Positions 10,136 through 11,343 of a stretch of 64,000 nt of DNA are shown here, piece by piece. Source of the stretch: Prochlorococcus marinus str. MIT 0919 (GTDB lineage Bacteria; Cyanobacteriota; Cyanobacteriia; PCC-6307; Cyanobiaceae); NCBI RefSeq assembly GCF_027359375.1, contig NZ_CP114779.1, positions 1,364,001 to 1,428,000 on the forward strand, given 5' to 3'. How positions within the stretch are numbered: position 1 is the first letter of the stretch; the number at the start of each line of letters is the position of its first letter. The position numbers and the translations under genes were made by a program. The notes under the pieces were generated by a model that was not told the DNA's origin, ran no database searches, and saw nothing but the letters and a program-made list of their open reading frames with translations.

Positions 10136-10214
10136 GTGATCATGATTCTCTGAAGATCATCCCATGTAGGTTCCCTATGCTTATAGTTTCTTTAAGTCTG
10201 TATTGATTTTAGAA

Positions 10215-11343
10215 GTGCAAGATTTGTCAGATTTCAAGAGAGATCTCTCTTTGCTTACTAAGCGCCTGAGCAATGCTCAGGACTGTCTTTGACATTCCAG
10301 CATTGAATGCACTGCAGAAAGATTTGGAACAAATAGCTTCTCAGCCTGAGTTTTGGAATGACCAGCAAAAAGCGAAGAAAGAAATGAGGAAGCTTGATGA
10401 TGTGAAAGCGCAATTATCAAAATTAGTTGAATGGAATGGAGTACTAGAGGATGCTCAAGTTTCTTTAGAACTATATGAACTTGATCATGATGATGAGATT
10501 TTGCTTATTGCAACTAAGGGCTTAGCTAAATTAAAAACAGATCTTGATCTTTGGGAATTAGAAAGGCTTTTAAGCGGTCCATATGATATCGAAGGTGCAG
10601 TTTTGTCCATTAATGCTGGAGCAGGAGGAACTGATGCTCAAGATTGGGCTCAAATGCTTCTAAGGATGTATACACGCTGGGCAGAGGACCATGACATGAA
10701 AGTAAGTATTAACGAGCTCTCTGAAGGGGAAGAGGCTGGTATTAAGAGTGTGACCATTGAGATTGAAGGGCGCTATGCATATGGTTATTTACAGCATGAA
10801 AAAGGTACACACAGGTTGGTCAGAATCTCTCCATTTAATGCAAATGGCAAAAGGCAAACAAGTTTTGCAGGTGTAGAGGTAATGCCCAAACTTGAAGATG
10901 AGGTGCAATTAGATATTCCTGAAAAGGATTTAGAAGTAACTACAAGTCGATCTGGGGGGGCAGGAGGACAAAATGTTAATAAAGTAGAAACCGCAGTCCG
11001 TATTCTTCATGTACCCACAGGTTTAGCAGTCCGTTGTACTCAAGAACGCTCTCAATTACAAAATAAAGATAAGGCATTAACTTTGCTCAAGGCAAAGTTA
11101 ATGGTTGTTGCGCAAGAACAACGAGCGTCTGAAATAGCAGATATCCGTGGAGACATTGTTGAAGCAGCATGGGGGAATCAAATTCGTAATTACGTTTTTC
11201 ATCCATATCAGATGGTTAAAGATTTGCGAACAGCTAAAGAGTCCACTGATATAGAGGGAGTCATGAACGGAAATATAGATTCCTTTATTCAGTCACTTTT
11301 ATTACAAGGTATAGAAAAAGCTCAAAATACTTTAGAGAATTAA
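10215..11343 (+). CDS. prfB: Peptide chain release factor 2, made by programmed +1 frameshift
   Basis: Class I release factor for UGA and UAA. Two frames must be joined: GTG at 10215 reads 25 codons ending ...NAQDCL at CTT 10287-10289, then meets TGA at 10290-10292; skipping T10290 resumes at GAC 10291 with DIPALNAL and continues to 11343. The joined protein is 375 aa, normal for RF2, while the second frame alone lacks the N-terminal helix. The peptidyl-tRNA motif GGQ is in [13 protein letters not shown]. The CTTTGAC slip site is the classic autoregulatory one: RF2 shortage favours the shift. The GTG start is inferred from alignment with family N-termini (DLSDFKRDL); no strong ribosome site is visible. 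Confidence 0.94.
10284..10296 (+). promoter_or_regulatory. prfB programmed frameshift site (CTT TGA C)
   Basis: In the upstream frame the order is GAC TGT CTT TGA CAT; in the +1 frame it is CTT then GAC ATT CCA. This is the slippery CUU followed by a weak UGA-C stop known from bacterial RF2 genes. An AGGA lies four bases before the CTT and could act as the internal Shine-Dalgarno stimulator. Both flanking frames have RF2-like protein sequence, so this is not a sequencing error. Confidence 0.93.

Follow-up and report, generated by a model that had tools for sequence, protein, structure and literature searches.

We found that the prfB gene of Prochlorococcus marinus str. MIT 0919 is divided between two reading frames, ORF1 and ORF2, which encode release factor 2 (RF2) and need the textbook +1 ribosomal frameshift to do so. 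Our reading, to which we assign a probability of about 0.7, is that the frameshift is obligatory and is a cyanobacterial variant, whose stimulator is a hairpin within the mRNA in place of a strong duplex between the mRNA and 16S rRNA. RF2 frameshifting is the textbook case of +1 recoding and is said to be remarkably conserved, the internal Shine-Dalgarno being a major feature of it, and autoregulation of RF2 by frameshifting is established for E. coli. The gene lies in the 64,000 nucleotide stretch of DNA that was analysed (the window), from a genome of 1.72 Mb on a single contig; among named organisms, Prochlorococcus and Synechococcus are the closest to it. Throughout, "family" refers to the family of the host (GTDB Cyanobiaceae), from which 99 distinct sequences were used for the shift site and start codon columns.

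The upstream frame (ORF1, 10215 to 10292, + strand) has 25 codons followed by an in-frame TGA at 10290-10292, and the +1 frame is open from the GAC at 10291 up to a stop at 11341-11343. This second frame (ORF2, 10291 to 11343, + strand) encodes 350 aa with the PCRF and RF-1 domains, and the joined product recomputes to 25 + 350 = 375 aa, which agrees with the length in the first-pass annotation. The TIGR00020 model scores the joined product highest at 465.7 bits, compared to 460.1 for a product starting from the ATG at 10273 and 457.0 for ORF2 alone. Solved RF2 chains align with the joined product across the junction, beginning at its residue 3, and the ORF1 protein is kept in all relatives. 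The first-pass annotation had proposed that prfB requires the +1 frameshift and that the upstream frame encodes the RF2 N-terminus, and had named loss of this frame in close relatives as one observation that would speak against it; both proposals are borne out, and none of the relatives examined has lost the frame.

At the junction the early in-frame stop is preceded by the slippery codon CTT and followed by the weak context base C (CTT TGA C, 10287 to 10293, + strand). These seven bases are invariant in 99 of the 99 distinct family sequences and nearly so in other cyanobacteria, and CTT TGA without the following base shows no variation among the examined relatives of the class. As a bare motif CTTTGAC is common, with 15 occurrences in the window compared to 10.4 expected, and its abundance was dropped as evidence since the difference is not significant. 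The site goes beyond chance because its position is fixed in all of these family sequences and not because the motif is rare. In three genomes of one deep-branching cyanobacterial family (L177, L179 and L180 of f13) the C after CTT TGA is replaced by A or G, and the hairpin described below is retained.

A single-frame gene caller would offer a different model, in which there is no frameshift and RF2 is initiated within ORF2 at the ATG at 10273 to give 356 aa. The reading frame from 10273 to 11343 is indeed open. However, only 19 of the 44 distinct family sequences have this ATG, as do 10 of those from other cyanobacteria; it lies across the variable hairpin loop and is for that reason not conserved. 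The model also has to contend with an ORF1 protein that is conserved in all relatives and with a joined product that outscores the ORF2-only forms and aligns across the junction, and we regard it as hardly credible. As a start codon ATG 10273 was ruled out by its absence from over half of the distinct family sequences. The first-pass annotation rightly warned that a start here would give a wrong N-terminus, as MLRTVF would replace 25 conserved residues. Its statement that this ATG lies inside the upstream frame needs correction, as it is true of the position only: the codon at 10273-10275 shares the main (+1) frame with ORF2 (10291 − 10273 = 18), and it does no more than overlap ORF1.

The start codon of ORF1 is the GTG at 10215-10217 (+ strand). 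In the corresponding column (codon −25) of the 99 distinct family sequences we count 54 TTG, 41 GTG, 3 CTG, 1 CCG and no ATG, so that GTG or TTG is found in 95 of the 99 and the third base is always G. In the four sequences with CTG or CCG, a GTG or TTG lies further upstream in frame, at a distance of one or about ten codons. A stop in frame at −27 leaves −25 as the only possible start in a number of relatives (e.g. L084, L088, L093, L102 and L110), which is why 10215 was chosen over the TTG at 10203; the latter is ruled out by the stop at −27 in the close relative L084. Over all 113 host-family records an ATG start of prfB is found in none and GTG or TTG at −25 in 109, and ATG stands at the corresponding start in 82 of 90 other cyanobacterial sequences. 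The use of a non-ATG start may reduce initiation and the output of RF2. Upstream of it, a TATAGT at 10182-10187 (+ strand) was spotted by eye as a candidate −10 promoter element, about 25-28 nt 5′ of the start, and relatives have a TANNNT box (TAGCGT, TACGGT, TAGCTT) at a similar distance from theirs. TATAGT is possibly the −10 element of prfB, with a short leader that would have no Shine-Dalgarno.

The hairpin lies within ORF1 just upstream of the shift site. It has a stem of 7 bp, CCTGAGC-AAT-GCTCAGG (10265-10281), formed by a 5′ arm CCTGAGC (10265 to 10271, + strand) and a 3′ arm GCTCAGG (10275 to 10281, + strand) around a variable loop AAT (10272 to 10274, + strand), which is the source of the non-conserved ATG 10273. 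Its 3′ end is 5 nt before the CTT, which leaves 2 nt between the hairpin and the E-site codon, and with an energy of −11.3 kcal/mol it is a stable upstream hairpin of the type described in PMC6321510. Few short folds of the gene are as stable. In the minimum free energy (MFE) fold of an isolated 51-nt segment of this genome an alternative wins, in which CAATGCT (10271-10277) pairs with AGCATTG (10300-10306) across the shift site; in a 211-nt fold the hairpin appears both in the MFE structure and in the centroid. A search of Rfam gave no relevant match.

The stem is well conserved. Codons −9, −8 and −4 are nearly always CGC, CTG and CAG, also in the AT-rich Prochlorococcus, and relatives have the variants CCTGGGC-NNN-GCCCAGG, CCTGGGT-NNN-ACCCAGG and CCTGAGT-NNN-ACTCAGG. 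All 7 pairs form in 84% of the distinct family sequences (37 of 44) and in 74% of those taken from other families of cyanobacteria (53 of 72). It could be argued that this is an ordinary RF2 site, where the AGGA serves as a weak internal Shine-Dalgarno and conserved amino acids together with codon usage give rise to the inverted repeat as a by-product. Such an argument can draw on the retention of CAGGA throughout cyanobacteria and on the peptide RLG-x-(A/T)-QD, which favours a palindrome. However, a null in which the amino acids are fixed and the codons are drawn from each gene's own usage gives all 7 pairs in 5.6% of the family and 2.1% of the other cyanobacterial sequences, i.e. 2-6% compared to the 74-84% observed. 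The 5′ arm, which is useless to a Shine-Dalgarno, is moreover frozen at its synonymous sites: its Leu codon is CTG in 128 of 128 sequences and the third base of its Arg codon is C in 121 of 128. In the 37 AT-rich members of the family CTG is used in 37 of 37, though it makes up 2.9% of Leu codons, and CGC in 32 of 37, though it makes up 11.6% of Arg codons.

Two-sided covariation of the pairs also goes against a by-product. Among 68 distinct sequences 95.4% of the cells are paired, compared to 90.8 ± 0.6% after shuffling, with 35 two-sided changes compared to 16.3 ± 4.3 and a covariation score of 0.234 compared to 0.145 ± 0.011; none of 500 shuffles reached the observed value in any of the three measures. 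A control with a slid register gave at most 56.5% paired. Because relatedness inflates shuffle tests, the covariation was repeated with one sequence per family (38 families), where the two variable pairs still stand above the shuffles, with a mean P of 0.005 and 0.0004. Taking this together we find the by-product explanation quite unlikely. In three family members (L090, L102 and L059) the stems are broken while CTT TGA C is kept, and two of these have CAAGA for CAGGA; they are natural tests of how much decay of the stimulator can be tolerated.

The same covariation bears on the idea of a DNA operator, with the dyad bound by a regulator protein. In favour of this idea, the inverted repeat follows a possible promoter at a distance of about 80 bp. 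Here the bases covary with pairing kept, unlike the fixed sequence of a protein contact, and the single occurrence in the genome, the 3-nt loop and the constant distance to the shift site also fit poorly with an operator, which makes this idea very improbable. The hairpin could instead be real and have another role, such as hiding the AGGA against internal initiation, setting mRNA stability or pausing RNA polymerase. This is in line with the covering of the AGGA by the 3′ arm and with the high stability of the fold. Such roles sit less well with the spacing between hairpin and CTT, which is fixed with no indel in any relative, with the lack of a T-run after the stem, and with the lack of the hairpin in groups that have a strong internal Shine-Dalgarno, and we consider them unlikely.

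It is because of these last groups that we tie the hairpin to the role of the stimulator. The hairpin together with CTTTGA is found exactly once in each of the 65 class genomes searched and in 0 of 81 other genomes of the phylum, so that it is confined to one class; a reversed control pattern gave zero matches in the same search. The host genome has a single occurrence. A strong internal Shine-Dalgarno (AGGGGG-like, 3 nt before the CTT) was looked for at the 5′ side of the site and only AGGA was found (10279 to 10282, + strand), a weak remnant that overlaps the 3′ arm. The duplex with the anti-Shine-Dalgarno is about −4 kcal/mol here compared to −9.9 in other groups, and the 16S tail of the host has an intact anti-Shine-Dalgarno. 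In most of the out-of-class relatives that we examined, AAGGAG or AGGAGG precedes the usual 3-nt spacer, while AGGGGG or AGGAGG prevails in distant bacteria, and neither group has such a stem. The hairpin energy is about −10 to −11 kcal/mol in cyanobacteria compared to a mean of −1.8 elsewhere, and thus a weak anti-Shine-Dalgarno duplex goes with a strong hairpin in cyanobacteria and the reverse is seen in out-of-class relatives and other phyla. These sequences suggest that a strong mRNA-rRNA duplex gave way to an equally placed, or nearly so, strong duplex within the mRNA itself. It seems somewhat probable to us that the whole cyanobacterial class has swapped the ancestral mRNA:16S rRNA stimulator of the RF2 frameshift for a cis-acting hairpin. 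The first-pass annotation had called this the known RF2 autoregulatory site, which holds for the RF2 +1 frameshift site itself, but not for the usual strong internal Shine-Dalgarno, which is weak here and has a covarying hairpin in its stead.

In the reading that we prefer the hairpin, in place of the weak Shine-Dalgarno, probably makes the ribosome slip. We infer that this could work as follows. When RF2 is scarce the ribosome would pause with its P site on CUU and its A site on UGA, and the 7-bp hairpin, melted by the passing ribosome, would refold just behind the E site. The refolded hairpin could then pull or wedge the mRNA toward the exit side and weaken the pairing in the E and P sites, so that the peptidyl-tRNA would slip from CUU to UUU and full-length RF2 would be made. 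When RF2 is plentiful the UGA would be read as a stop and a 25-residue peptide released. This autoregulation by the level of RF2 is assumed by analogy with E. coli, and the residual AGGA could serve as a weak Shine-Dalgarno, which counts against the hairpin in this role. So do its stem of 7 bp compared to the 12 of the tested H1 hairpin, its gap of 5 nt and not 3 nt to the CUU, the alternative pairing in the 51-nt fold, and the family members that keep the shift site with a broken stem.

If this reading is true, a natural upstream hairpin stands in for the internal Shine-Dalgarno at a +1 frameshift that is conserved and serves a housekeeping gene, and the essential property of the stimulator would be a duplex at the mRNA exit and not the pairing with rRNA as such. 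The mechanistic question about the stimulator becomes testable by synonymous mutations. Sequence logos limited to the Shine-Dalgarno would overlook the cyanobacterial version, and annotators could reliably place the true start of prfB by the hairpin plus shift site. In a 2025 survey that covered 12,753 genomes the motif consists of an SD-like element, a slippery sequence and a stop (PMC12421855), and the main text of the survey mentions neither a hairpin, nor secondary structure, nor cyanobacteria. The sections of a 2016 review on RF2 and on 5′ stimulators (PMC5009743) likewise contain no prfB hairpin, and older comparative work may hold an earlier mention.

The site shares with the RF2 frameshift of E. 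coli and most bacteria (PMC12421855, PMC5009743) the early in-frame TGA, the CTT, the C after the stop and a +1 ORF2 that encodes RF2. It differs at the 5′ side, where other bacteria have AGGGGG with a 3-nt spacer, an internal Shine-Dalgarno so spaced being a major feature of the E. coli site (PMC5009743), whereas here we see a weak AGGA within the 3′ arm of a 7-bp hairpin and a 5-nt spacer. The closest likeness to the hairpin is the synthetic H1 (PMC6321510, PMC3639245), which is likewise stable, lies just upstream of the same site and was proposed to mimic the SD:anti-SD duplex. Huang 2018 placed a synthetic hairpin upstream of CUUUGA and obtained about 60% of the stimulation by the internal Shine-Dalgarno with 70S ribosomes in vitro, an effect that was seen only without RF2 and was far smaller with a destabilised stem (PMC6321510). 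Cho 2013 proposed that closure of the stem pulls the mRNA, and asked if a cis hairpin could replace the internal Shine-Dalgarno (PMC3639245). By analogy the cyanobacterial prfB hairpin would fit the role raised in both papers (PMC6321510, PMC3639245), though H1 is engineered with a 12-bp stem and the prfB hairpin is natural, has 7 bp and is conserved across a class. Other natural structures 5′ of a recoding site, as treated in the review (PMC5009743), are the upstream stem-loop of barley yellow dwarf virus and the 5′ stem-loop of phage T4 gene 60, the latter thought to work by zippering at the mRNA exit of the ribosome. These two serve a 50-nt bypass and a viral frameshift, while the prfB hairpin would act on a housekeeping gene of bacteria and its +1 shift.
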